From the NCBI GenBank assembly GCA_902778665.1, contig CACYYN010000025.1:1-50576 (forward strand): a DNA stretch of 50,576 bases, given 5' to 3'. The position numbers and the translations under genes are program-made. The stretch's first letter is position 1; every line of letters starts with the position of its first letter. This DNA is from Oscillospiraceae bacterium (GTDB taxonomy: Bacteria; Bacillota; Clostridia; Oscillospirales; Oscillospiraceae). This document shows, in pieces, positions 31,153-45,024 of this stretch. Under the pieces are notes generated by a model. It had not been told where the DNA came from. It was given only the letters and a program-made list of their open reading frames with translations, and did no database searches.

Positions 31153-34100
31153 TCAGGGCCTATGCCACACTGCGTATAATGTGACAGTTTCACCGTTTGT
31201 AATGGTGTGCCCCAGTGTAGTGTCTGAGATTCTTGTTCTGTTGAGGAATGTCGGTTCGGATGCATTCGGATCTGTACTCCAGCCCAGAAAAACATAGCCT
31301 GAGAGACGGTAACTGCAGCTGGTCAGAGCATAGGTCCTGCCGAAGAGCCTGTTGGTAAGCGGCCTCATGGTTCCGGTCACATTCCCACGTCCTTGGGCAT
31401 TCCCGTCAAAAATGATATCATATTTGCACTGTGACCATTTTGCGTACACGGTGATGGCTCCGCTGCTGTCCAGATTTTCATTGATGGTGATAACAGGCGT
31501 GCGGAAGGAAGACTCTTTATACCACCCTTCAAACACATAGCCTTCACGGGTAAGCCCCTGCAGCACAATTGACTGTCGTACGCTATAGCTTGTAGGATTC
31601 GGGTTGATGTCGGAAGCTTTGACGTTCCGATAAGTAATCCGGTAGGTTACCTCTGTCCACTGGGCGTAGAGGGTGATTACTGCACCGTTCTCCGAGGCGA
31701 GAGAGGTGACACGAGAACGGTTAACATAACCTGTGCCTGAACCATCCGGTGCGGTGTTCCATCCGGCAAAGGTGTATCCGGTGCGTTTGAAGGTGTTGTT
31801 TTTGAGGGAATAGCTTCTGCCGACAATGCACCCCTCCAGAGAATCCATCGTTCCGTACCCGCCGTTCGGCTCAAACCGGACGGAATAAGTGTAAGGTGAC
31901 CATTTCGCATAGAGTGTCAGATTTCCGGAAGTTCCGTGTTCAATTGAAGTTACGGCATTGGCGAAGTGGGAATCGGTGTACCAACCGAGAAAGACATATC
32001 CGGAGCGGCTGAGCCCCGAAAGACTCTGTGTTGCATCCTCTGCAGTATATTCGGAAGGGTTCGTGTTTCCGTCTGTATCCAGCACATTCCTGTAGGTGAT
32101 TTTATACTGGACCGGTGCCCACTGGGCGTAAAGCGTCAGTACAGCACCATTCTCAGATGCAAAGTTGGCCTGACGTGCTCTGTTGCTGTAAGCGGTTCCT
32201 GATCCGTCCGGCATGGTGTTCCAGCCGCTGAAGATGTATCCTGCCCGACGGAAGGAATTGGAGGTGAGTGTTACGCTGTTTCCTACAACCCGGTTTTCCA
32301 TAGCCCGCATGTTGCCCGAGGTTGCTCCGTTTCCGTCAAATACGATGCTGTACTGATGAGCAGTCCATACAGCATAAAGAGTGACCGTTGCTCCGTTGGT
32401 AACAGAGAGGTTGGAGATAGCGGCACCGTCTTCATATAGTGCTCTTCCACGGGCGGATGTTGCCCAACCTGTGAAGGAATAGCCTTCTCTTGTAAACGTG
32501 CAGGTGGGTAGAGTATAGGTTGCACCGTAGTTACACATACTCCCTGCCATTTCTCCATTGCCTCCGTTGCTGTCAAAGGACAGAAGATAGGCATTTGTTG
32601 CCCAGATTGCATAGAGTGTGACGGTGCCGTCGGCATCTGCTGTCAGATTGCTGACGCTCTGCCTGTCTGTAAATTCAGCAGAAGAAGCTGACGGGCTGGT
32701 TGCCCATCCGATAAAGGCGCTTCCGTCCCGACGGAAACCATTGGCAGTCAGAGCAGCAGTTCTGTCATAGGTCATCGCCTGTGTCCGCTGATTGCCGGAA
32801 GCCCCGTTAGGGTCAAATACAACCGTATAGGTGTTGGCCTTCCATTTGGCGTAGAGAGTGAGATCACCTGTGGTTTCGGATGTGATCTTTGAAACCGCAG
32901 CGCCGGAAAGGGAAGAGGATGTATACCATCCGCCAAAGGTGTACCCGGCTCTGGCAGGGTCTGCCAGCAAGGTTTCAATACCTGCTGTGTAGGATGAGGG
33001 ATTTGATGTTGCGTTGGTTCCGCCGTTGCATTCATAATGAACACTGAAGCTGAGTGCATCCCCGCATCTCGTACACACGCCGTTTGCAAAGTCATGTCCG
33101 AGAGCACTGACAACAAGCTCTTCTGCAGAAACAGGATTGACGTGCTCTTCTGTGAGAAAGATCTTGCCGCATTCATCGCATATCCAATGGGCCAGAGTGC
33201 CTGCTTCTGTGCAGGTTGCCTCAACCGCCTCATGGAAGGTAAGGGCAGTGTGTTTTTCTTCTTCGGAAGCTGAAGAGCTGCCGGAGTAATCATTATCCGG
33301 AACAGGATAGGAGGAACTGAAAGAAGCGTTGCTGAATTTATCCCCTTTTGAGGAATAGCCGCTTTGCTTGTGATTCTGCAGCCACCAGGTGTTTCCTCTT
33401 AAAAAGTAAAGATAAGAGGATCTCCCGGCATCCCAGGTCGCATCCAGATGGTAATACTTATTTCCTACCTGGGCAATATTCCAGGCGTGCATCATTGCCT
33501 TGCTGTCAATCACGCGTGCACGCAGGCCGGCCTCCAGGCACAGACGGTAAAAAGCAACAGAGTATCCCTGGCATACCGCTTTTTTCTGAACAAGGGCGGC
33601 ATACCCGGAATATTTTAGAGTATAGGAACCATCATTTGCATGAGCATCGTCATAGGTGACATTGGAGCAGAGGTAATCGTAAATCGCTTTGATTTTCTGA
33701 TACTCTGTTTTCCCGGAAAGATTGAGCTTGCTGAGAACTGCATTCACAGCGTTTGTCATTTCAGCTTCCTGAGTTGCTGTGGTATAATAGAGGGGGGCAA
33801 AATTGAAAAGATAGGAATACTGACCGGAGCCGTCCAGTTGGACCGGACCTGCGCCTGTGGCATTGTATCCTCCAAATTCATAGAGAAGGTAATCTCCCTC
33901 TGTAGGGACGCCGGTATGAGTAACCGCAGATGCATAGATATTGGAACACACCGTATTCCAATCGAGCTTTTCGGAAGACTGATAAAAGATCTTGATTTCT
34001 GCAGTTCTGGAAATCATGGCGGATTTCAGGGCACTGCCGGCGGACGAGGTATCCTTGTAAAAGGTATCGGCCGAAGAGAAGATAGAATTTGGAGCAGCCT

Positions 34101-34968
34101 GGAAGGTTACGGAATAGCCTGCCTGATTTCCGGTGTTCGCTTCCACATAGTCAGCAATTGTGTCTCCGAGTTGCTGAAGAAGATCAGCACACGCTTCCGG
34201 TGTCGTGGAGGCACCAGGGATATCTGCAGCATCCACAACTGCAGAGTAAATGGGATTGACCATCGTTACAGAGTGTACTTCCATATCGACAATCTGATCT
34301 GCTATGGGATCTGTTGCAGTCAGTACAATATCGAAATTCTGCTCCGGCTTATCCCATTCCACCCCAAAAAGGGTGTAATCTATGGATTTAAAATGGCCGC
34401 TTGCATCCTCAAAGCGGTATGCATAGATGCCGGGGGAGAGATAATAGATGTCGTAAAAGGGCTTCAGAGAAACCGGATCGATGTAAGGATCTATGAGTTG
34501 CCAGTTCTCGTTGTAAACCTGAAGTCCGGATAGATTCTCCGGCTGCGTGCCCAAAAACTGGACCTTTACAACAGAATATACGGTAACACCGTCAGCTTCC
34601 ATCAATATCTCGGCAGAAGGGAGGGTGGCCGCAGCAGAGTCCACTGTCGGAGCAGGAGCGGGAGCAGATACAGATTCGGAATCCGGTGCAGAAGGCGGCT
34701 CGGGATTTGACGCATCTTTCGGTCCTGGTGTTGGGTCGGCAGTCGGCAGAGGCGTTGTCTCAACGGGTGATTCCTGCACATGATCGGAAGAAGGTTCCGA
34801 ATAAGATTCAGAAGCCTGATCACCGGAGAGTTGAATGGAACCGGGCTGCAGCATATTATCGGATGTGTTGCCTGTTCCGTCACTGGTTACAGCCAAAGCA
34901 GGAACCTGCAAAAAAGAAAAGCATAATACAAAAATCAGAAACAGTGAAAGCCATTTCTTGCAAAACAT
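31153..34968 (-). CDS. Large secreted protein: transglutaminase-like domain plus eight Listeria-Bacteroides-type repeats
   Basis: 1271 residues from the ATG at 34968, set by GGAGGT eight bases upstream; an in-frame ATG at 35034 would put 22 residues before the signal peptide. Signal peptide MFCKKWLSLFLIFVLCFSFL with cleavage near ALAV. A Pro/Ser/Thr-rich linker follows. The transglutaminase-like domain has the triad Cys466 (KAVCQGYS), His494 (MMHAWN) and Asp509 (YHLDATWD). A small CDECG/CTRCGD segment follows, then eight repeats of about 70-80 residues with the pattern Y-x-GY-x-F-x-GW and ending LYAKW or LYAQW (flg_new/InlB B-repeat type). There is no LPxTG sorting motif. It is probably a secreted or wall-associated protein acting on peptides or envelope. 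Confidence 0.88.
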   Translation of the reverse strand: MFCKKWLSLFLIFVLCFSFLQVPALAVTSDGTGNTSDNMLQPGSIQLSGDQASESYSEPSSDHVQESPVETTPLPTADPTPGPKDASNPEPPSAPDSESVSAPAPAPTVDSAAATLPSAEILMEADGVTVYSVVKVQFLGTQPENLSGLQVYNENWQLIDPYIDPVSLKPFYDIYYLSPGIYAYRFEDASGHFKSIDYTLFGVEWDKPEQNFDIVLTATDPIADQIVDMEVHSVTMVNPIYSAVVDAADIPGASTTPEACADLLQQLGDTIADYVEANTGNQAGYSVTFQAAPNSIFSSADTFYKDTSSAGSALKSAMISRTAEIKIFYQSSEKLDWNTVCSNIYASAVTHTGVPTEGDYLLYEFGGYNATGAGPVQLDGSGQYSYLFNFAPLYYTTATQEAEMTNAVNAVLSKLNLSGKTEYQKIKAIYDYLCSNVTYDDAHANDGSYTLKYSGYAALVQKKAVCQGYSVAFYRLCLEAGLRARVIDSKAMMHAWNIAQVGNKYYHLDATWDAGRSSYLYFLRGNTWWLQNHKQSGYSSKGDKFSNASFSSSYPVPDNDYSGSSSASEEEKHTALTFHEAVEATCTEAGTLAHWICDECGKIFLTEEHVNPVSAEELVVSALGHDFANGVCTRCGDALSFSVHYECNGGTNATSNPSSYTAGIETLLADPARAGYTFGGWYTSSSLSGAAVSKITSETTGDLTLYAKWKANTYTVVFDPNGASGNQRTQAMTYDRTAALTANGFRRDGSAFIGWATSPSASSAEFTDRQSVSNLTADADGTVTLYAIWATNAYLLSFDSNGGNGEMAGSMCNYGATYTLPTCTFTREGYSFTGWATSARGRALYEDGAAISNLSVTNGATVTLYAVWTAHQYSIVFDGNGATSGNMRAMENRVVGNSVTLTSNSFRRAGYIFSGWNTMPDGSGTAYSNRARQANFASENGAVLTLYAQWAPVQYKITYRNVLDTDGNTNPSEYTAEDATQSLSGLSRSGYVFLGWYTDSHFANAVTSIEHGTSGNLTLYAKWSPYTYSVRFEPNGGYGTMDSLEGCIVGRSYSLKNNTFKRTGYTFAGWNTAPDGSGTGYVNRSRVTSLASENGAVITLYAQWTEVTYRITYRNVKASDINPNPTSYSVRQSIVLQGLTREGYVFEGWYKESSFRTPVITINENLDSSGAITVYAKWSQCKYDIIFDGNAQGRGNVTGTMRPLTNRLFGRTYALTSCSYRLSGYVFLGWSTDPNASEPTFLNRTRISDTTLGHTITNGETVTLYAVWHRP

Positions 34969-35041
34969 CTCTGGATACCTCCGGGACTGAATGACTGGTG
35001 CAAGATCAGTTTCAGGCAGTGAGCCTATTTTCATATCGCAT

Positions 35042-35581: not shown

Positions 35582-35586
35582 AATCA

Positions 35587-35625
35587 GCGGGTTTGCAATA
35601 CGAATGATGCGTAGTGCAAACCTGC
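35587..35625 (+). terminator. Probable csoR terminator
   Basis: GCGGGTTTGCA (35587-35597) pairs with TGCAAACCTGC (35615-35625) with one G-U pair; a TTTTTT run comes only 14 nt later, so termination may be weak. Confidence 0.45.
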
Positions 35626-35687
35626 TTCTGATATATGAGTTTTTTGAGGAATAATTCTATTTCATGGCTGAAGAGAAATGGATTCTG

Positions 35688-35716
35688 TTGACTCATACGA
35701 TGAAAAAAAGTATAAT
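35688..35716 (+). promoter_or_regulatory. xpaC promoter
   Basis: TTGACT (35688-35693), 17-bp spacer, TATAAT (35711-35716). Confidence 0.75.
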
Positions 35717-35757
35717 AAACAAACATGATCATGTTATCAGGGTGAGGTCAGGTTATA

Positions 35758-37050: not shown

Positions 37051-37079
37051 TTGACATTCTGGTCAGCTGATGATAATAT
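37051..37079 (+). promoter_or_regulatory. Promoter of the apbE-rnf operon
   Basis: Perfect TTGACA (37051-37056), 17-bp spacer, TAATAT (37074-37079), and a leader of about 45 nt. No promoter of similar quality was seen between here and 45.0 kb, so this may drive the whole electron-transfer operon. Confidence 0.75.
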
Positions 37080-37128
37080 GACGAAGATCGAATCTGTACG
37101 ATCAAATATAAACATAGGAGTTAGTAAA

Positions 37129-38127
37129 ATGAAAAAAATTCTTGCAATCACACTTCTTCTTTGCATGATGCTTGTCATGGGCGCATGGTCGGCTTCCGGG
37201 GAAGAGTACACTCTAGGTATGGGCGTTGTTGTCAGCACGGATTCTTCCAAGACCAACAATGCACAGGTTGATGCAACGGTTGCTGCCGTTGTTCTCGACA
37301 AGGACGGCAAGATTGCTGCCTGCCGTATTGACTGCGCACAGAGCAAGATGGATGTCACTGACGGCGAAGTCGATGCAGAGAAGGAATTCCTCTCTAAGGT
37401 CGAGCTGAAGGAAGACTACAATATGGTCAAGTTCTCCGATGCTACACTTGAGTGGTATCAGCAGGCTGCCAATTTCGAGGAATACTGTGTCGGCAAGACT
37501 GTTGAAGAGGTTCTTGCCGCTGAGACAGTTCTCAACGAGGAAGGCCACACCGTGTTTGTTGATGAAACACTCTATGCATCTGTTTCTATTTCTATCGCTG
37601 ATATGCAGCAGGCTGTCGCCAAGGCATGTGCTGACGATCAGGCTGTCACCTTCACCGCCAATGGCGAAGTGACCTTCGGTCTTGCCTGCAACACCGAAGC
37701 TACCGAGTCTGTTGCCGCCACCGACGATGCTGACGGTGTTGTCAAAATGTACACTGATTTCGCAGCAGCTGTTGTAGATGCTGACGGCAAAGTCGTCGCA
37801 AACCTCCAGGATGCCATCCAGCCCCAGATCGTCATCGACGTTGACGGCGAGATTGGCGACATCACCTTCCGCGGCACCAAGCGCGAGCTGAAGGAAGACT
37901 ACAACATGGTCAAGTTCTCCGATGCCACACTGGAGTGGTATCAGCAGGCTGCCAACTTTGAAGCCTTTGCCAACGGCAAAACGGCTGAAGAGCTCGCCGG
38001 TGTTGAGACGGTTGTTAACGAAGAGGGCCATCAGGTCTTTGCTGATGAAACACTGTACGCATCTGTCTCCATCAGTGTTGACGGCATGACTTCCGTTCTT
38101 CTCAAGGCGATCGATTACGCACGCTGA
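37129..38127 (+). CDS. Secreted two-repeat protein heading the apbE-rnf operon
   Basis: 332 residues from the ATG at 37129 (TAGGAG upstream). Signal peptide KKILAITLLLCMMLVMGAW, without a lipobox cysteine. The mature part is two homologous units of about 150 residues, each with a strand region (VAAVVLDKDGKIAACRIDCA / AAAVVDADGKVVANLQDAI), the helix YNMVKFSDATLEWYQQAANF, a GKT-VEEV / GKT-AEEL element and a closing LYASVSIS. The family is common in clostridia but has no assigned function that I know. Position before apbE and rnf suggests an extracytoplasmic redox or flavin partner; the SDAT in each helix is not the canonical flavinylation motif. Confidence 0.8.
   Translation: MKKILAITLLLCMMLVMGAWSASGEEYTLGMGVVVSTDSSKTNNAQVDATVAAVVLDKDGKIAACRIDCAQSKMDVTDGEVDAEKEFLSKVELKEDYNMVKFSDATLEWYQQAANFEEYCVGKTVEEVLAAETVLNEEGHTVFVDETLYASVSISIADMQQAVAKACADDQAVTFTANGEVTFGLACNTEATESVAATDDADGVVKMYTDFAAAVVDADGKVVANLQDAIQPQIVIDVDGEIGDITFRGTKRELKEDYNMVKFSDATLEWYQQAANFEAFANGKTAEELAGVETVVNEEGHQVFADETLYASVSISVDGMTSVLLKAIDYAR
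37402..37962 (+). repeat. Internal near-identical 78-bp repeat pair in the secreted protein gene
   Basis: Units 37402-37479 and 37885-37962 encode 26 identical residues (ELKEDYNMVKF...QQAANFE); the six base differences seen are all synonymous. The rest of the two domains has diverged more, so the segment was homogenised recently or is under strong selection. Confidence 0.9.
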
Positions 38128-38150
38128 GTTTTATCCCCAAAAAACAGGAG

Positions 38151-39227
38151 ATGGTTTCAATTCGTTTCGGCAGTCAGTTCCGTTTCTTCGCCCTGGTGAT
38201 TGCGGCATCACTGATTCTGACAGGATGCGGCGGACCGGTCCAGGAAGCGAAAGTAATTGAGCCGAAAGGGAAGGTTTATTTCACCTATTTCGATACAGTC
38301 TCCTACATCTATGATTATTCTGGCGATTCGGCAGAACGGTTTGATGACCGTTCTGCCGAAACAGCGCTTCTGCTGGAAGAATATCACCGGCTCTTTGATA
38401 TTTATCATGAATATGCCGGCATGAATAACCTTTGCACCCTCAATAAAAATGCCGGTGGAGAGGCTCTCGCTGTAGATGAAAAGCTGATCAATTTTCTCCA
38501 GTATGCCAAAGCAATGGAGGAACTGACCCACGGCGAGATGAATGTGATGCTCGGTGCTGTCCTGCGTTTGTGGCATGAGTGCAGGGAGGAAGCCTCATCT
38601 TCACCATCTGCGGCAAGAATTCCGACGGAAGAGGCTCTTCACGCTGCAGCCGAGCATACCTCAATTGACCTGTTGGAGATCGATGCAGATAATAAAACGG
38701 TGCGTATAGCAGACCCGGAGGCGTCCATTGACGTCGGCGCACTGGGAAAGGGTTACGCAACGGAAATGGCTGCCCGTATGCTTGAAGAACAGAACGCTCA
38801 GGGTTATGTGCTCAACATCGGCGGTAATATCCGCATTATCGGATCACGCCCGGACGGTACCGGATGGAAAACCGGGATCCGCAACCCGTCTGATCCGGAT
38901 GGCGCTTTTGCCATGCAGATCTATATTGCCGACACTGCATGTGTCAGCTCCGGCGTATATGAGCGGTTTTTCGTTGCAGAGGGAAAACGTTGGCATCACA
39001 TCATCGATCCGGACACGTTTTATCCGGCGGCTTATTACACCGCACTGACGGTCGTTACGAAGGACAGCGGCTTGGCTGACGCACTGTCTACAGCGCTGTT
39101 TTGTATGGATTATGAACAGAGCCGTGGTCTTGTGGATTCGCTGGATGGTGTTGAGGCATGCTGGTTCTTCGCAGACGGAGAATATCGTGAGACAGATGGT
39201 TTTGCAAAACTGATTGTAGAAAAATAG
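38151..39227 (+). CDS. apbE: FAD:protein FMN transferase (ApbE), lipoprotein
   Basis: 358 residues. Attaches FMN by a phosphoester bond to Ser/Thr of extracytoplasmic flavoproteins, needed for RnfD and RnfG. Lipobox LILTGC near residue 26 anchors it outside the membrane. Family motifs: YFDTVSYIYDY, the GEMNVMLGAVLRLW region, SIDVGALGKGYATEMAARML, NIGGNIRIIG, GWKTGIRNP, SSGVYERFF, HHIIDPDTFYPA. The AGGAG directly abuts the ATG at 38151, an unusually short spacing; no better start is seen. It lies 23 bp after the secreted repeat protein and 35 bp before rnfC. Confidence 0.95.
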   Translation: MVSIRFGSQFRFFALVIAASLILTGCGGPVQEAKVIEPKGKVYFTYFDTVSYIYDYSGDSAERFDDRSAETALLLEEYHRLFDIYHEYAGMNNLCTLNKNAGGEALAVDEKLINFLQYAKAMEELTHGEMNVMLGAVLRLWHECREEASSSPSAARIPTEEALHAAAEHTSIDLLEIDADNKTVRIADPEASIDVGALGKGYATEMAARMLEEQNAQGYVLNIGGNIRIIGSRPDGTGWKTGIRNPSDPDGAFAMQIYIADTACVSSGVYERFFVAEGKRWHHIIDPDTFYPAAYYTALTVVTKDSGLADALSTALFCMDYEQSRGLVDSLDGVEACWFFADGEYRETDGFAKLIVEK

Positions 39228-39262
39228 GTTTTTATTTTTTATAGGAAAGCAGGAATTAATCC

Positions 39263-40600
39263 ATGGCTTTATTTACCAAAAAGATCTCAGCAGTAAAAGT
39301 CCCTCATCATAAAAATACAGCTGCTGTTGCATCTGTTGTGGCCCCTCCGCCTCCGGAGGTGCTGATTCCAACCAATATGCAGTCCGGAGATGCCTGTGTG
39401 CCGATTGTTTCTGTGGGCGATAAGGTAAAGGTCGGACAGGTTATTGCGAAGGCAGGCAGCAGAAATTCAGTTCCGCTGCATGCGACTGTTTCCGGCACTG
39501 TTACAGCCATTGAACCCTATAAGCTGACCGGGCGTGCCGCCGAGGCAATCCGGATCCAATCTGACGGGAAAATGGAACGTGACCCATCCCTCGCACCGCC
39601 TGTAGTAAAAGATCTGGACAGCTTTCTCCAGGCTGTTAACGATTCAGGTGTGGTTGGTTTGGGTGGTGCAGCTTTTCCGGTATGGGCAAAGCTGGATGCC
39701 ATCCGGAAAAATCCCATCCCGACGGTGCTTGTCAATGGCGCAGAGTGTGAGCCGTATATCACAAGCGACCATCGCATGATGCTCGAGCATGCCGACTGGA
39801 TCAAAAAAGGCATTGAGCTTCTGAAAGAATATCTCCATTCGGAAGAATTCATTATCGGAATTGAAAAGAACAAACCGGATGCAATTGAACATCTGACGCA
39901 GGTTTTTGCAGGGGACAGTGCCGTACGCGTCATGCCGCTGGAAAGTGTTTACCCGCAGGGTGCAAAGCAGGTCCTGCTCTACAATGCTACCGGCAAGGTT
40001 GTCGGCCCCGGTCAGCGTCTGGCTTCACTCGGCGTGATCATTATCAATGTGACGAGCCTTGCCATGGTGGGCCGTTATTTCACTGACGGCACACCTCTGG
40101 TGAGCCGCAGCATCACGGTGGACGGTTCTGCTGTTTCGGAACCGAAAAATATTGAGTTTCCGATCGGCACGCCCATTTCCTATGTGTTTGAGCAGTGCGG
40201 TGGCCTGAAGAATTCACCGCGTAAGATTATTTACGGCGGCGCTATGATGGGCAAAACGGTGACAGATCTGAATGCACCTGTCCTCAAAGCAACCAACGCC
40301 ATCCTGGCGTTTGATGAGAAAGACAGCAGCAAGAAGCCTGCTGCTCCTTGCATTCACTGCGGCAGATGTGTGGAAGCTTGCCCGCTGAATCTGAATCCGA
40401 CTGAGTTCTCCCATGCAATGGAAATCGATGACGAGGACCGTCGTGCGGAAATTCTGAACAGAGAACAGGTCTCTCTGTGCATGGAATGCGGTTGCTGCTC
40501 CTTTGTCTGCCCTGCCCACAGGCCGTTGGCAGAAAACAATACCGCAGCCAGAGGTTTTATCCGGAAATACAACGCTGCAAAGAAAGAAGGAGGGAAGTGA
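39263..40600 (+). CDS. rnfC: Ion-translocating oxidoreductase complex subunit RnfC
   Basis: 445 residues, peripheral cytoplasmic subunit that oxidises or reduces NAD with FMN and two 4Fe-4S clusters. N-terminal lipoyl-like region with VSVGDKVKVGQVIAK, the GLGGAAFPVWAKL loop (NuoF-like), VLVNGAECEPYITSDHRMM and a C-terminal ferredoxin part with CIHCGRCVEACP and CMECGCCSFVCP. First of the five consecutive rnf genes. Confidence 0.97.
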   Translation: MALFTKKISAVKVPHHKNTAAVASVVAPPPPEVLIPTNMQSGDACVPIVSVGDKVKVGQVIAKAGSRNSVPLHATVSGTVTAIEPYKLTGRAAEAIRIQSDGKMERDPSLAPPVVKDLDSFLQAVNDSGVVGLGGAAFPVWAKLDAIRKNPIPTVLVNGAECEPYITSDHRMMLEHADWIKKGIELLKEYLHSEEFIIGIEKNKPDAIEHLTQVFAGDSAVRVMPLESVYPQGAKQVLLYNATGKVVGPGQRLASLGVIIINVTSLAMVGRYFTDGTPLVSRSITVDGSAVSEPKNIEFPIGTPISYVFEQCGGLKNSPRKIIYGGAMMGKTVTDLNAPVLKATNAILAFDEKDSSKKPAAPCIHCGRCVEACPLNLNPTEFSHAMEIDDEDRRAEILNREQVSLCMECGCCSFVCPAHRPLAENNTAARGFIRKYNAAKKEGGK

Positions 40601-40601
40601 T

Positions 40602-41540
40602 ATGGAAGTGAATCTGATCTCCTCGGCTTCGCCGCATATCCACAGCGGTTCATCAAGCCGTCTCATTATGGCGGATGTGATTATCGCTCTGCTTCCGGCA
40701 GCTGTCGCTTCTGTGATCCTGTTTGGTACGTATGCACTTTGGATGATCCTTGTGTGCATTGCCAGTGCTGTCGTGTCTGAGTTTGTCTTTAATGCCGTTA
40801 CCGCAAAAGAGCAGACGCTCGGGGATCTCAGTGCTGTCGTAACAGGGCTTCTGCTTGCACTGAATCTCAGTACCAATGTTGCACTCTGGCAGGGGGCTCT
40901 CGGAGCATGCTTTGCCATTTTTGTGGTAAAATGCCTGTTCGGTGGCATGGGTCATAATTTTGCAAATCCTGCCATTACTGCCCGTGTTTTTCTGCTTCTT
41001 GCTTTTTCATCCGTCGCCGGCGGCGCAAATCCGATCATCAACGCCGGGGTGGATGCTGTCAGCTCCGCTACACCGCTTGAACTGATTACACAGGGAAGCA
41101 CCGATGCACTCCCGGCCCTGAAGGACATGTTCCTCGGGCTTCGCGGTGGAACAATCGGCGAAACATGCATTCTTGCACTGCTGGTCGGTTATGTCTATCT
41201 TGTTGCCCGTAAGGTGATTAAGTGGTATATTCCCGCAATATTTGTCTGCACGGTGTTTGTCTGTTCCTGGATCATTACGGGAAGCCTGAATCTTGCTCTT
41301 TATGAGATTCTTTCCGGCGGTCTTATCCTTGGTGCAGTGTTTATGGCGACGGATTATGTCACAACGCCGATCCATGCCGGCGGGCGCATGCTGTTTGCTC
41401 TCGGCTGTGGGCTGATCACAGTGGCGATTCGGTTTGTGTTCTCCTATCCCGAAGGCGTTTCTTTCTCGATCCTCTTTATGAATATTCTCACCCCGTGGAT
41501 CGAAAAACTCACGCGCAACAGGCCGTTGGGAGGTGTCTGA
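40602..41540 (+). CDS. rnfD: RnfD, membrane flavoprotein subunit
   Basis: 312 residues from the ATG at 40602 (AAGGAGGG upstream), 1 bp after rnfC. About nine membrane helices. FMN is expected to be bound covalently to Thr157 in DAVSSATPLE, which matches the SGAT-type ApbE target except that Gly is Ser. GMGHNFANPAITARVFLLLAF and ATDYVTTPIHAGGR are family motifs. Confidence 0.96.
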   Translation: MEVNLISSASPHIHSGSSSRLIMADVIIALLPAAVASVILFGTYALWMILVCIASAVVSEFVFNAVTAKEQTLGDLSAVVTGLLLALNLSTNVALWQGALGACFAIFVVKCLFGGMGHNFANPAITARVFLLLAFSSVAGGANPIINAGVDAVSSATPLELITQGSTDALPALKDMFLGLRGGTIGETCILALLVGYVYLVARKVIKWYIPAIFVCTVFVCSWIITGSLNLALYEILSGGLILGAVFMATDYVTTPIHAGGRMLFALGCGLITVAIRFVFSYPEGVSFSILFMNILTPWIEKLTRNRPLGGV

Positions 41541-41541
41541 T

Positions 41542-42840
41542 ATGGAAGGTAAAAACAATGGTCTTGCCAGGGGCATTCTGACCCTGATCCTGATTGTGGC
41601 GGTTTTTTCCGGCATTCTTTACGGTGTCAATGCTTATACTGCTCCGATTATTGAATGGAATGATAATGCTGCACTTCTGGCCCCTCTTTACACGCTTCTT
41701 CCCGATGCATCCGGCTTTGAACTCTTGTATGACTATACTGCTCCGGAAAACTCCTCTCTGAAGGATGTTCCGTCAACCGTCCGGTATATCCATGCAATTT
41801 CAGAAAACGGCGGATATGCGCTGCAGCTTTCCACCACGGAAGGCTTTACCGGAGACCCGATTGATCTTTCGTTTGCTGTTGACGCTGACGGAAAAATTCT
41901 GAACGCACAGGTCGATGCCTATCCGGATACCAAGGATATGGGTGTTGACGAATATCCGCTCACCTATATCGGGCAGGATTCCGCTCTTGCCGATGTCAGC
42001 ATCGTTGCCGGCGTAACCTATTCTTCGTCTGCTTTCAGACGGGCAGTGGCGGATGGCTTCTTTGCTCTGACAGAGAATGGTCTTGTAGCCGAAGGGTATA
42101 AAGACCCTGTCCAGGCTTTAACGGAAGTTCTGCCGGTTGTTTTTCCGGGAATTGCCAATAATGCAGGTGTCGTCCAGACAGAGGAGATTCAGAGCACCGG
42201 AGACAAATTCAATTCTGCTATGAAATCGACCATCGATACCGGCGCTGCTTTCTTTGCAGGAGAAGGGGATGACCTTTATCTGATTACGGTCAATGCTTTC
42301 GGCACTGTCAAAGCCTATGATACCAAGGGGCGCGAGATTACAGATTCTGTTCCTGCTGAAGCCCTTGAACAGGCGAAGGCAGATGCTGCCGCATCTGCCA
42401 AAGACTTCCTGAAAAAAGATACCAGGGCTTTCAAAAAGCTGACGGGAGACGATATGGAGCTCACAGCTCTTTCTCTCGATACGTTCAACTCCGTGACGGG
42501 AGCTTACAAGCTCGTTTCCGGCGGAAATACCTACTACGGCTTTACCTCACGTACCTTTGGCTTCGGGGATATGGCAATCGTTACCCGTTATGTTCTGGAT
42601 GAAAACGGAGCAATCGTGAAAATGAATGCGGATGAGCTGATCCTTGAAAAAGATTACTTCTCCAACTATACGCTGGACGAAACATCCTATAAGGAAGGTT
42701 TCCAGGGCATTACAGAGAGTACCTTTACCGGGGATGAGACGCTTATTACCGGAGCTACAATGACGTCGAATGCGGTGAAGACCGCTGTGCAGGATATCTT
42801 TGAAGCCTTTCAGAATCTCAAAGAGAACGGAGGGATCTGA
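41542..42840 (+). CDS. rnfG: RnfG with two tandem FMN-binding domains
   Basis: 432 residues from the ATG at 41542, about twice the usual RnfG (about 200). One N-terminal membrane helix (GILTLILIVAVFSGILYGVN) and two FMN-bind domains outside the membrane. The second has the canonical ApbE target ITGATMTSNAV with Thr406. The first has the degenerate VAGVTYSSSAF with Thr159 retained. The doubled protein could carry one or two covalent flavins in series. It starts 1 bp after rnfD and ends 2 bp before rnfE. Confidence 0.93.
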   Translation: MEGKNNGLARGILTLILIVAVFSGILYGVNAYTAPIIEWNDNAALLAPLYTLLPDASGFELLYDYTAPENSSLKDVPSTVRYIHAISENGGYALQLSTTEGFTGDPIDLSFAVDADGKILNAQVDAYPDTKDMGVDEYPLTYIGQDSALADVSIVAGVTYSSSAFRRAVADGFFALTENGLVAEGYKDPVQALTEVLPVVFPGIANNAGVVQTEEIQSTGDKFNSAMKSTIDTGAAFFAGEGDDLYLITVNAFGTVKAYDTKGREITDSVPAEALEQAKADAAASAKDFLKKDTRAFKKLTGDDMELTALSLDTFNSVTGAYKLVSGGNTYYGFTSRTFGFGDMAIVTRYVLDENGAIVKMNADELILEKDYFSNYTLDETSYKEGFQGITESTFTGDETLITGATMTSNAVKTAVQDIFEAFQNLKENGGI

Positions 42841-42842
42841 TT

Positions 42843-43502
42843 ATGACGGAACATAAATCTTTGCGTATGCTTGCAGCGGAAAATCCTTCGATGATCCTTA
42901 TCCTGGGAATTTGCCCGCTCTTCGGTTCAACGGCTGATGTCCGTGCAGCGCTTGGCATGGGCTGCCTTGTGCTTGTGGCACTTCTGGCTTCCTCGTTGAT
43001 TATGGGGTTGTTGAAGCATTGCATTACCCGGCAGTTTGTCGTTCCTGCAGCTTTTCTGGTTTGCGCCGGTGTCGTCTCTGTTCTGGAGCTCCTCTTCCAT
43101 GCATGGTTCCCGGGGCTTTATCAGATTCTCGGTGTTTATGTTTCTGTGCTTTCGGTCAATCTTCTGCTCTTCGCTGCCACAGCAGACAGCTGTGAGCAAA
43201 GTGTTGAAAAAGCGATCAGTCAGGCTCTGGTGGTTGGGCTCATTTTCTTAGCCGTTCTGCTGTCGGCGTCCGTAATTTGTGAGGTGTTTGGTAATGCCAG
43301 CTTTGCAGGGATTGAGATCCCTGCACTGAAAGATTACAAAATCAGTGTGCTGGTTCAGCCAGGCGGCGCTCTGCTGACAGGGGCGTTTCTCGCAGCGGTG
43401 CTGAATGCGGTGGCAGAAAAAGCAACCTCATCCGAATCCGTTTCTGATTGGTTTGCTTCTTCCTTCGGAAATGCTGAAAAAAAGGAGGAGAGTGAGTCAT
43501 GA
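42843..43502 (+). CDS. rnfE: RnfE membrane subunit
   Basis: 219 residues, six membrane helices. ENPSMILILGICPLFGSTADV is the RnfE/NqrD N-terminal signature with the cysteine proposed to help hold an iron-sulfur centre within the membrane together with RnfA; the GLLKHCITRQFVVPAAFLVC and VSVLSVNLLLFA regions correspond to the other half-helices. It overlaps rnfA by 4 bp (ATGA). Confidence 0.95.
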   Translation: MTEHKSLRMLAAENPSMILILGICPLFGSTADVRAALGMGCLVLVALLASSLIMGLLKHCITRQFVVPAAFLVCAGVVSVLELLFHAWFPGLYQILGVYVSVLSVNLLLFAATADSCEQSVEKAISQALVVGLIFLAVLLSASVICEVFGNASFAGIEIPALKDYKISVLVQPGGALLTGAFLAAVLNAVAEKATSSESVSDWFASSFGNAEKKEESES

Positions 43503-44074
43503 TAGAAACCTATACTGTGAAATCCCTGATTCTGCTGGTCATCAGCGGTGTGCTGGCAGGCAACTTTGCACTGGAAAAGCTGATGGGTGCAGCTCCTGTT
43601 TTCGGCCTCTCCCGTAAGGAGAATAATCTCACAGCTCTTGGTGTCGGTGTGCTGGTTGTTATGCTCATTTCGGCGCCTTTACTCCGGGCAGTGAGGATGT
43701 TTTTCCTTGCTCCTGCAAATCTGCTCTTTCTGCAAAATATCTGCTTCACTGCGTTGATCCTGTGTGTGGCATATCTGGTGGCATGGCTTGCCGGTGCCCT
43801 TCTGAAACGGCCGATGGGACCATATTTTCTGATTCTTGCGGTTAACAGCGCTGTCTTTGGGCTGGCTGTCACTGCAGCGAGCGACGGTCTTTCTCTCACC
43901 GCAACAATGCTGACGGCACTCGGGGTCGGCCTTGGATATCTCTTCACGCTGTTTGTGTTTGCCGGCCTCCGGGAAAAGATTGATGATTTTTATGTGCCGA
44001 AGGCGTTTCGCGGCCTCCCGGTCCAGCTTCTGGCAGCAGCCATCATTTCCATGGCCCTGCTTGGTTTCAAATGA
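43499..44074 (+). CDS. rnfA: RnfA membrane subunit
   Basis: 191 residues, six membrane helices, inverted-topology partner of RnfE. LLVISGVLAGNFALEKLMGA and the central LLFLQNICFTALILCVAYLV (family cysteine) fit RnfA/NqrE. It overlaps the next gene by 4 bp. In usual Rnf operons rnfB follows rnfA; here it is replaced by a NusG-domain-II gene. Confidence 0.95.
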   Translation: MIETYTVKSLILLVISGVLAGNFALEKLMGAAPVFGLSRKENNLTALGVGVLVVMLISAPLLRAVRMFFLAPANLLFLQNICFTALILCVAYLVAWLAGALLKRPMGPYFLILAVNSAVFGLAVTAASDGLSLTATMLTALGVGLGYLFTLFVFAGLREKIDDFYVPKAFRGLPVQLLAAAIISMALLGFK

Positions 44075-44442
44075 GTACCGATCGGAAAACATTCCGGCTT
44101 GATATTCTGCTGATCCTGTTTTTCCTTCTTCTTTCTGCTGCAATGTTTGTTTTTATGCACTTCCGGCAGCAGGAAGGTGGGTGGGCAGTCGTCACTGTCA
44201 ATTCCAGAGAAGTAGCCCGTTATTCTCTCCTGCAGGATGGACGTTATGTCCTGAATAACGGGACAAACACGCTTGTCATAGCAGACCGTGCTGCATGGAT
44301 GGAAGATGCACTCTGTCCGGATCATATCTGTGTCGATATGGGGAAAATCCGTTATTCCGGTCAGAGTATTGTCTGTCTCCCAAATCGCGTAGTAGTCTCA
44401 ATTGAGGGCGTGTCAGGGGAGGCCGATCTGTATATCGGATAA
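44071..44442 (+). CDS. NusG-domain-II membrane-anchored protein (EetA-like)
   Basis: 123 residues. One N-terminal membrane helix (LDILLILFFLLLSAAMFVFM) and an extracytoplasmic NusG domain II with SREVARYSLLQDGRYVLNNG, DALCPDHICVDMGKI and GQSIVCLPNRVVVSIEG. The two cysteines in CPDHIC and VCLP are typical. Proteins of this family sit beside Gx transporters in Gram-positive extracellular electron transfer loci (EetA in Listeria, from memory). Translationally coupled to rnfA by the ATGA overlap. Confidence 0.88.
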   Translation: MSTDRKTFRLDILLILFFLLLSAAMFVFMHFRQQEGGWAVVTVNSREVARYSLLQDGRYVLNNGTNTLVIADRAAWMEDALCPDHICVDMGKIRYSGQSIVCLPNRVVVSIEGVSGEADLYIG

Positions 44443-44459
44443 AGCCTGCCCGCTTAAAT

Positions 44460-44505
44460 GGGATGGAAACTTCCGGAGTCTTTTTCTTCCGGATCTTTCC
44501 ATCCC
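44460..44505 (+). promoter_or_regulatory. Nested hairpin between NusG-II gene and Gx-transporter gene
   Basis: GGGATGGAAA (44460-44469) pairs with TTTCCATCCC (44496-44505), with an inner TCCGGA/TCCGGA stem (44472-44477 and 44488-44493). The downstream TCTCTATTTCC is weakly U-rich, so it may be a partial terminator or a processing site that lowers expression of the last gene. Confidence 0.55.
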
Positions 44506-44535
44506 TCTCTATTTCCTCAGACAGGAGGTTTTTTC

Positions 44536-45024
44536 ATGAAAACCAGAAAACTGACATGGATGGCTCTTTCTATTGCCTTAGCCATGGTTATGTCTTTTAT
44601 AGAGAGCCAGATCCCATCCTTTGTTCCAATCCCGGGGGTTAAAATGGGCCTTGCCAATATTGTTGTTGTGTTTGCCCTTTATCGCTTCGGATGGAAGGAG
44701 GCTCTCGGTATCTCGATGCTTCGCGTGATTCTGGTCTCGCTTTTATTTGGCCATCTTGCAAGTTTTTTCTATAGCTTTGCCGGGGCTCTGCTGAGCTTTG
44801 CAGGAATGGTGCTTCTGAAACATTCAGGCAGATTTGGTCATGTCGCTGTGAGCGTAACCGGCGGCGTGTTGCATAATATCGGGCAGATTGCCATGGCATG
44901 CATTCTGCTGGGAACAAACGCAATCGCCTATTATCTCCCGTTTCTGATCCTCTCCGGGACGATCGCCGGCATCCTGATCGGGTTGGTCGCTGCGATGCTT
45001 GTGAAGAGAATACCGGCGGATTGA
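44536..45024 (+). CDS. Gx-transporter-family membrane protein (EetB-like; heptaprenyl diphosphate synthase component I family)
   Basis: 162 residues from the ATG at 44536 (AGGAGG upstream). Five to six hydrophobic helices. IESQIPSFVPIPGVKMGLANIVVVFA, then SMLRVILVSLLFG and GGVLHNIGQIAMA are characteristic of the family, which resembles the S components of ECF transporters. In Gram-positive electron-transfer loci it pairs with the NusG-II protein and quinone genes. Probably a small-molecule permease or quinone-related membrane component. Confidence 0.88.
   Translation: MKTRKLTWMALSIALAMVMSFIESQIPSFVPIPGVKMGLANIVVVFALYRFGWKEALGISMLRVILVSLLFGHLASFFYSFAGALLSFAGMVLLKHSGRFGHVAVSVTGGVLHNIGQIAMACILLGTNAIAYYLPFLILSGTIAGILIGLVAAMLVKRIPAD

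Follow-up and report, generated by a model that had tools for sequence, protein, structure and literature searches.

Structures of the Rnf complex are available from Acetobacterium woodii (9eri) and Clostridium tetanomorphum (7zc6). In A. woodii the [2Fe-2S] cluster in the membrane is held by C25 and C113 of RnfA and by C25 and C108 of RnfE, and mutants in these cysteines neither reduced NAD+ with ferredoxin nor grew autotrophically (Kumar et al. 2025, PMC11889175). Here we describe a related operon in a stretch of 50,576 nucleotides from an Oscillospiraceae bacterium (the window; contig CACYYN010000025.1 of assembly GCA_902778665.1). The operon consists of nine genes in one run on the forward strand (37129-45024), in the order Sec-ApbE-RnfC-RnfD-RnfG-RnfE-RnfA-NusG_II-Gx, in which Sec stands for a putative secreted protein, ApbE for a flavin mononucleotide (FMN) transferase, and Gx for a Hpre_diP_synt_I protein. 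It shares with the two Rnf complexes of known structure the homologues C, D, G, E and A, their operon order, and the sites for NADH, riboflavin and FMN. It differs from them by the absence of RnfB, the loss of the [2Fe-2S] ligands of RnfA/E, a second FMN-bind domain on RnfG, and the presence of Sec and ApbE. We propose that this operon probably encodes one arm of Rnf that moves electrons from NADH outward via flavins, and not the standard pump.

Other systems have been suggested to derive from parts of Rnf. The Na+-NQR complex has been proposed to have arisen from an rnf duplicate by loss of rnfB (Reyes-Prieto 2014, PMC4014512), and in being an rnf duplicate that lost rnfB the present operon is similar. 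In other respects it is the opposite: in Na+-NQR the RnfA/E-type cluster was retained (PMC12174285), the cofactors of RnfC disappeared and NqrF was acquired, whereas the operon lost the cluster and kept RnfC; no NqrF-type domain was identified among its genes with Pfam. The NQR/RNF-like systems (Meheust 2021, PMC8238504, where multi-flavinylated RnfG proteins were also noted; Huang 2024, PMC11334425) share the idea of a partial NQR or RNF for one-way electron flow from NAD(P)H to the outside. As described there, they combine an RnfD-NqrF (PF00175) fusion with one FMN-bind protein, and the flavinylation threonine of RnfD is absent. In the operon RnfC is the NADH module, RnfD consists of PF03116 only without a PF00175 fusion and has kept the threonine, and RnfG, RnfE and RnfA remain. 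Because the RNF class as given in these papers requires RnfB, the operon falls outside both their RNF and their NQR/RNF-like classes. An rnfCDGEA cluster with a sixth, cytochrome-like gene has been named in Desulfotignum (PMC4046663). No account of an Rnf with cluster-less RnfA/E, or of an operon such as this one, was found in the literature searched, which did not extend to subscription papers and supplements.

The flavin-based extracellular electron transfer (EET) locus of Listeria comprises Ndh2-DmkA/B-EetA/B-FmnB-PplA. The operon resembles it in having ApbE, an EetA/EetB-like pair and a putative secreted, two-domain FMN-bind-like protein, the ApbE/FmnB-type and EetB-like genes being recognized by PF02424 and PF07456. 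Unlike in Listeria, the electron donor would be RnfC-RnfD, and the motif of Sec is non-canonical; Ndh2 and demethylmenaquinone (DMK) genes were absent from the nine operon genes and the upstream gene of 404 residues, to which this search was limited. In Listeria, EetB is required for the supply of flavin adenine dinucleotide (FAD) to ApbE, while an eetA deletion had no EET phenotype, and eetB adjoins Rnf genes in 572 Clostridia genomes (Rivera-Lugo 2023, PMC9973259). By analogy, Gx is likely an FAD exporter that serves ApbE, and not an electron carrier. The initial annotation of this DNA had taken the NusG_II/Gx pair as a pointer to EET. However, the pair, or Gx alone, also occurs in the run of nine of 16 canonical operons (picked for their RnfA similarity, not at random), and an inference of EET from the pair alone was rejected; the EET context itself is retained through the Sec family, which is found in a Listeria-like EET locus (see below).

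Loss of the ferredoxin arm

The loss of the cluster cysteines in RnfA and RnfE is a feature that the initial annotation did not include. Cysteine positions were placed by alignment to 9eri, and counts of cysteines and motifs were taken from 68 distinct variant operons (an earlier tally of 86 loci included duplicates). In A. woodii numbering, neither C25 nor C113 is kept in any of 59 variant RnfA proteins, and in RnfE C108 is kept in 0 and C25 in 24 of 66. Both subunits were called in 59 variant operons; of the four cysteines, 37 of these operons retain none and 22 a single one, while all four are present in 16 of 16 canonical operons. Six additional variant RnfA genes, recovered with tblastn and inspected by eye, lack both RnfA cysteines as well. 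The window has one of the four left, at the position of RnfE C25; the C108 position is occupied by Leu, and the two RnfA positions by Ala and Ser.

No rnfB was called inside the operon by Pfam or NCBIfam. In the assembly of the window (2.73 Mb, 79 contigs, 84% complete) the RnfB profile TIGR01944 gave ten sub-threshold matches and none over the cut-off, and PF04060, the Fe-S domain of RnfB, gave no matches, whereas the same profile was positive in five of 14 control genomes. Apart from the two of the window, this assembly has no RnfA/RnfE-family genes over the cut-off. Furthermore, positions 21250-50546 of the window are collinear with a single contig of a sister species (G320:C105, 44317-81683), with the junction at 35582-35757 as the sole gap. 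In the sister, a block of about 9 kb lies between a metal-sensing repressor and the 404-residue gene; it contains canonical rnfC, a fused rnfD-rnfG reading frame (by eye), rnfE, rnfA, rnfB and three further genes. At this place the window has an unbroken 176 bases. Since this syntenic junction is unbroken, incompleteness of the assembly is not the cause of the absence of rnfB at this site. An assembly gap was also rejected because relatives likewise have no rnfB in the operon. A relocated canonical copy may lie in the missing ~15% of the assembly.

Thus, the absence of rnfB from the operon, as claimed in the initial annotation, stands, and the incomplete assembly has no rnfB over the cut-off either. 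RnfA and RnfE, as judged from their aligned sequences, have too few cysteines to hold a [2Fe-2S] cluster in the known way. With both RnfB and the cluster ligands gone, the known route by which ferredoxin delivers electrons is closed, and the two losses amount to one functional loss, that of the ferredoxin arm Fd-RnfB-[2Fe-2S].

The sister block has features of its own. Its canonical rnf (L220/L104, G320:C105 58718-67281) is combined with two membrane genes that resemble those of cytochrome c biogenesis (by eye) and with a gene for a Cytochrom_C552 (NrfA-like) protein of 426 residues with four CxxCH motifs (PF02335, E 6.5e-76). The block would represent an Rnf with a nitrite-reductase-like module, and is absent in its entirety from the window.

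The retained NADH arm and its distribution

The flavin and Fe-S sites of RnfC, RnfD and RnfG are retained nearly throughout the variants. Residues 13-430 of RnfC align to 9eri_C, and the two 4Fe-4S motifs are found in 64 of 64 full-length relatives as well as in the window. In RnfD of the window, N122, Thr157 and D251 correspond to N123, T156 and D249 of 9eri_D, of which the Asn and Asp belong to the riboflavin site and the Thr binds FMN covalently; among variants these are kept in 63 of 63 (Asn), 62 of 63 (Thr, with one Ser) and 63 of 63 (Asp). RnfG was described in the initial annotation as doubled, and this is borne out: the protein of 432 residues has FMN-site threonines T159 (codon 42016-42018) and T406 (codon 42757-42759), both conserved throughout an alignment of 21 sequences, that of the window among them, and a Thr is present in each FMN-bind domain in 64 of 64 variants. 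In a larger alignment, 69 of 70 variant RnfG rows have T in the second Thr column and the remaining row has a gap, compared with T in two and a gap in 13 of 15 canonical sequences. The model of the window RnfG matches RnfG structures (best E 4.6e-5). From these sequences, the arm NADH-RnfC-RnfD-RnfG is predicted to be intact, with its own ApbE and with Gx as its likely FAD supplier; together with the lost cluster ligands, this agrees with the earlier claim that the operon does not encode the standard ferredoxin:NAD+ complex.

The two halves of the operon have diverged at different rates. At an RnfD identity of 60-75%, the mean identity of RnfE/RnfA is 42.0/44.4% among variants against 67.5/72.4% among canonical operons, whereas that of RnfC is 60.5% against 52.2% (1435 variant and 24 canonical RnfE pairs, which are not independent). 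The ratio of non-synonymous to synonymous substitutions (dN/dS) between window and sister is 0.020 for RnfC, 0.046 for RnfD, 0.067 for RnfG, 0.124 for RnfE, 0.157 for RnfA, 0.053 for Sec, 0.083 for ApbE and 0.048 for Gx. These are all operon genes but NusG_II; for the upstream 404-residue gene dS was saturated and no value was obtained. RnfA/E are under a different, looser constraint than RnfC/D. The values of 0.02-0.16 nevertheless imply that the operon genes are not decaying.

A scan of species genomes with Sec only, in which loci were chosen without reference to RnfB, yielded 98 relatives, of which the best 80 were kept. They are labelled Oscillospiraceae, Ruminococcaceae or other Clostridia-type metagenome-assembled genomes, many from the guts of ruminants and other animals; the remaining labels are one Lachnospiraceae, two Bacillota, one unplaced bacterium and two short Spirochaetales contigs (L158 and L170, possibly binning errors or transfer). 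A variant RnfC is present in the Sec run in 72 of these 80 loci, the others being L158, L170, L177, L178, L180, L184, L186 and L187. From the 72, 63 extend to RnfE or beyond (59 of them at least 800 bases past the last operon gene), and none of the 63 has an rnfB in the operon; elsewhere in this work the labels variant and canonical are set by absence or presence of RnfB, so that a lack of rnfB in variants is there partly by definition. The comparison of gene order across Clostridia suggested by the initial annotation gave the same order in dozens of species, and in a tree of RnfC and RnfD 37 thinned variants form one clade (support 0.92). Within the genus, RnfA/E-family genes were found in 39 of 41 genomes and the divergent pair in 19 of 41, by our reading of the search results.

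The Fe-S protein of 336 residues upstream of Sec in L072/L134 was rejected as an RnfB candidate, as it has Fer4 domains only. Among other RnfB-like matches in the 80 loci, that in L109 is a true canonical copy on the opposite strand, and those in L123 and L128 (42 bits) are also on the opposite strand.

It could be argued that the operon is a decaying rnf duplicate, or that its complex borrows RnfB, and with it its function, from a canonical copy. In favour of this, both copies occur in many relatives and RnfA/E diverge fast. However, the low dN/dS values, the conservation of RnfC/D to about the same degree as in canonical sets and the common gene order all argue against it, and a borrowed RnfB would find no cluster to reduce. 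Moreover, only the variant was found in the assembly of the window and in the 95%-complete genome G273, where no rnfB was detected at E <= 1e-20 (weaker matches were not counted). We therefore regard decay or borrowing as very unlikely.

Some sequences were left out of the counts above. For RnfA these are L075, L101, L127, L129, L133, L141, L149 and L157 (not called) and L160 (80 residues), six of which were recovered by tblastn, while L141 and L157 show nothing after RnfD. Also left out were RnfE of L141 and L157, RnfC of L101 and L107, RnfG of L107, RnfD of L097, L101, L108, L141 and L166, and, because of length limits, Sec of L098 and L165. The comparisons of identity and of Na+-path residues comprise 73 rows, five of which are duplicates.

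The putative secreted protein and the proposed direction of electron flow

A Pfam search of Sec gave no family over the cut-off. A profile built from 17 relatives matches 2kzx (E 5e-4), and the SGAT segment of 2kzx aligns with the Sec motif. An AlphaFold (AF2) model of Sec has two similar halves (mean predicted local distance difference test score, pLDDT, 82.6), and alignment of Sec with RnfG by hhalign gave no usable match (probability 54%, 40 columns). FMN-bind2 domains are about 160 residues long and often occur in even numbers (Huang et al. 2024, PMC11334425). In all 61 Sec proteins of 300-420 residues, a Ser or Thr is found at the acceptor position of both repeats, within a pattern A-[STGNE]-[CV]-[ST] that includes AGCT, ASCS and ASVS. 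ApbE was partly active after single changes of Gly to Ala, Ala to Val or Thr to Ser in the motif (review PMC12052999), and for that reason it is possible that Sec is flavinylated by ApbE. The N-terminus is lipobox-like in 44 of the 61. One Sec protein (L098:13533-15506) has four repeats instead of two.

Sec is also found with other partners. An order-wide search gave matches in 42 of 394 genomes at E <= 1e-10, and 20 matches were examined. In L204 (5510-12619) Sec-ApbE is accompanied by a Pyr_redox_2 protein (Ndh2-like), a polyprenyl synthase, UbiA, NusG_II and Gx; this is the gene content known for EET in Listeria, except that PplA is replaced by Sec. In L205 and L208 the set comprises Sec, ApbE, Gx, NusG_II, UbiA and polyprenyl synthase, and the part in view contains no Ndh2-like gene; L206 resembles them but its contig ends within the locus. 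In L210 (8327-14112) and L216 (4888-10636) the order is NusG_II-Gx-Sec-ApbE-RnfC-RnfD, and the 18-19 kb in view contain neither RnfG, RnfE, RnfA nor RnfB, as in a minimal, two-subunit recruitment of Rnf. Their RnfC/D pair together (support 1.0) beside a different canonical clade (0.89), so that the recruitment of RnfC-RnfD beside Sec was here an independent event. L215 and L217 have a canonical rnf followed downstream by Sec-ApbE. In addition, four rnfB-less loci with lost cysteines outside the Sec clade were found in 11 genomes checked: L222 (8480-12904) has lost all four cysteines, L221 (8852-13373) both of RnfA while its RnfE keeps both, L223 (9103-13070) one of RnfA (RnfE not found) and L224 (3727-9373) one of RnfE (RnfA not found). 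Their RnfC/D occupy two other places in the tree. A protein of 734 residues with SGAT and TGAT motifs is encoded upstream of RnfC in L224.

In the mechanism that we favour, NADH would be oxidised by RnfC, with its NADH site, FMN and two 4Fe-4S clusters, and the electrons would cross the membrane through riboflavin and FMN of RnfD. RnfG, with two FMN sites, would hand them to the secreted Sec, which would pass them to an external acceptor such as a flavin, iron, a quinone or another extracellular reductase, while RnfA/E would serve as a redox-dead scaffold holding RnfG. The purpose would be regeneration of NAD+ in a fermenter, not ion pumping driven by ferredoxin. Both the outward direction and the acceptor are inferred. 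The same arm could in principle run inward, from an outside donor via Sec, RnfG, RnfD and RnfC to NAD+, building membrane potential. Inward movement is energetically favourable for the cell, Rnf is reversible and reverse transfer has been named (PMC11889175), and the sequences contain nothing that fixes the direction. Against such electron uptake, relatives of Sec occur in the Ndh2-like/DMK-type EET locus, which in Listeria is an outward route, and no extracellular donor enzyme is found among the operon genes; uptake therefore seems unlikely to us.

The residues of the Na+ path give a mixed picture, and for this reason loss of ion movement in all relatives is not claimed. In RnfE, E115 is kept in 63 of 71 relatives and R/K67 in 53 of 71; in RnfA, N112 is kept in 62 of 64. 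On the other hand, RnfA T110 is Ala in 59 of 64, E88 is kept in only nine of 64, and RnfE of the window has Val at R67 and Ala at E115. The A. woodii mutants T110G and R67A failed to grow, E115A grew like the wild type, and the redox state of the cluster sets the Na+ affinity (PMC11889175). Cluster-less RnfA/E might still form a second pump that translocates Na+ or H+, powered by the conformational changes that RnfG undergoes while shuttling between RnfD and the external acceptor. The presence of RnfA/E wherever the contig extends far enough, the purifying selection on them (dN/dS 0.12-0.16) and the residues kept in most relatives (RnfE E115 and R/K67, RnfA N112) fit with such a pump; the substitutions at T110, E88 and R67, and the dependence of Na+ affinity on a cluster that is lacking, do not, and we give it a rather low probability.

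Several observations weigh against an outward NADH arm. RnfA/E are kept wherever the contig reaches far enough, and with E115 and R/K67 retained in most relatives ion movement may persist. Foldseek with Sec gave no match at E <= 0.001, the consensus flavinylation motif is absent from Sec, with ASVS in the window where SGAT is expected, and Sec of the window has no lipobox, as is also the case in the sister (by eye). Outward electron movement costs membrane potential unless it is compensated. Finally, a normal rnfB elsewhere in the genome was considered in the initial annotation to speak against this interpretation, and in relatives this is in part the case, as 17 of the 19 genomes of the genus that carry the variant pair also have a canonical RnfA/E pair (again by our reading). 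Yet a canonical RnfB could not pass electrons via the variant RnfA/E, as these have no cluster.

If outward transfer by the NADH arm is correct, the operon shows which half of Rnf can function alone, and represents a naturally occurring loss of the RnfB-[2Fe-2S] input, which structural studies could produce only by mutation. It would provide gut and rumen Oscillospiraceae with a route to shed NADH electrons outside the cell, and would mirror the origin that has been proposed for Na+-NQR. Annotation of such operons as a ferredoxin:NAD+ pump would then credit genomes with an energy-conserving step that is absent. A broader proposal, to which we give slightly less than an even chance, is that RnfC-RnfD is a portable NADH dehydrogenase for EET that was cut from the pump several times in gut Clostridia (the Sec clade, L210/L216 and L221-L224), partnering a new class of double-domain secreted flavoproteins whose ApbE site is atypical and which would serve Ndh2-type EET as well.

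Operon layout and neighbouring features

The gene order and common strand given in the initial annotation were upheld by Pfam, which calls ApbE, the Rnf genes, NusG_II and Gx in this order, and by NCBIfam, which also calls the Rnf genes and ApbE (Table 1). RnfG, RnfE and RnfA score under the NCBIfam cut-offs (48.5/102, 97.7/213 and 102.5/229 bits, respectively) and above those of Pfam, and are therefore divergent. The ATGA overlaps reported for several junctions are two in number, RnfE/RnfA at 43499 and RnfA/NusG_II at 44071; the other intergenic gaps are five of 1-35 bases and one of 93 bases ahead of Gx. Position 37051, from which the initial annotation had counted the operon, is not a gene start but the -35 hexamer of a promoter-like consensus match, the first gene starting at ATG 37129; across the region 12 such matches were found against 8.1 expected in shuffled sequences.

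Table 1. Coordinates of the operon genes and associated features in the window
Feature	Position	Strand	Remarks
Junction, sister genome has ~9-kb canonical rnf block	35582..35757	.	collinearity
Sigma-70-like promoter, extended -10	37051..37079	+	TTGACA-17-TAATAT, 10/12, TG before -10; consensus match only
Sec, putative secreted, 332 residues, two FMN-bind2-like repeats	37129..38127	+	signal peptide by eye
ApbE FMN transferase	38151..39227	+	PF02424, E 1.7e-61
RnfC, FMN/NADH domain and two 4Fe-4S motifs	39263..40600	+	TIGR01945, 411 bits
RnfD, FMN and riboflavin residues kept	40602..41540	+	TIGR01946, 274 bits
RnfG, two FMN-bind domains, 432 residues	41542..42840	+	PF04205, first domain only
RnfE, divergent, one of two cluster cysteines left	42843..43502	+	PF02508
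RnfA, divergent, both cluster cysteines lost	43499..44074	+	PF02508
NusG domain II protein, EetA-like	44071..44442	+	PF07009, E 8e-29
Gx / Hpre_diP_synt_I, EetB-like, probable FAD-export S component	44536..45024	+	PF07456, E 6.5e-43

An Rfam search of the sequence gave no match. An inverted repeat, GGGATGGAAA...TTTCCATCCC, was seen by eye at 44460-44505 between NusG_II and Gx, where a terminator scan gave no call. Upstream of the junction, the reverse strand encodes a secreted transglutaminase-core protein of 1293 residues with seven Listeria-Bacteroides repeats (31153-35034); its syntenic counterpart in the sister genome shares only 47% identity with it.

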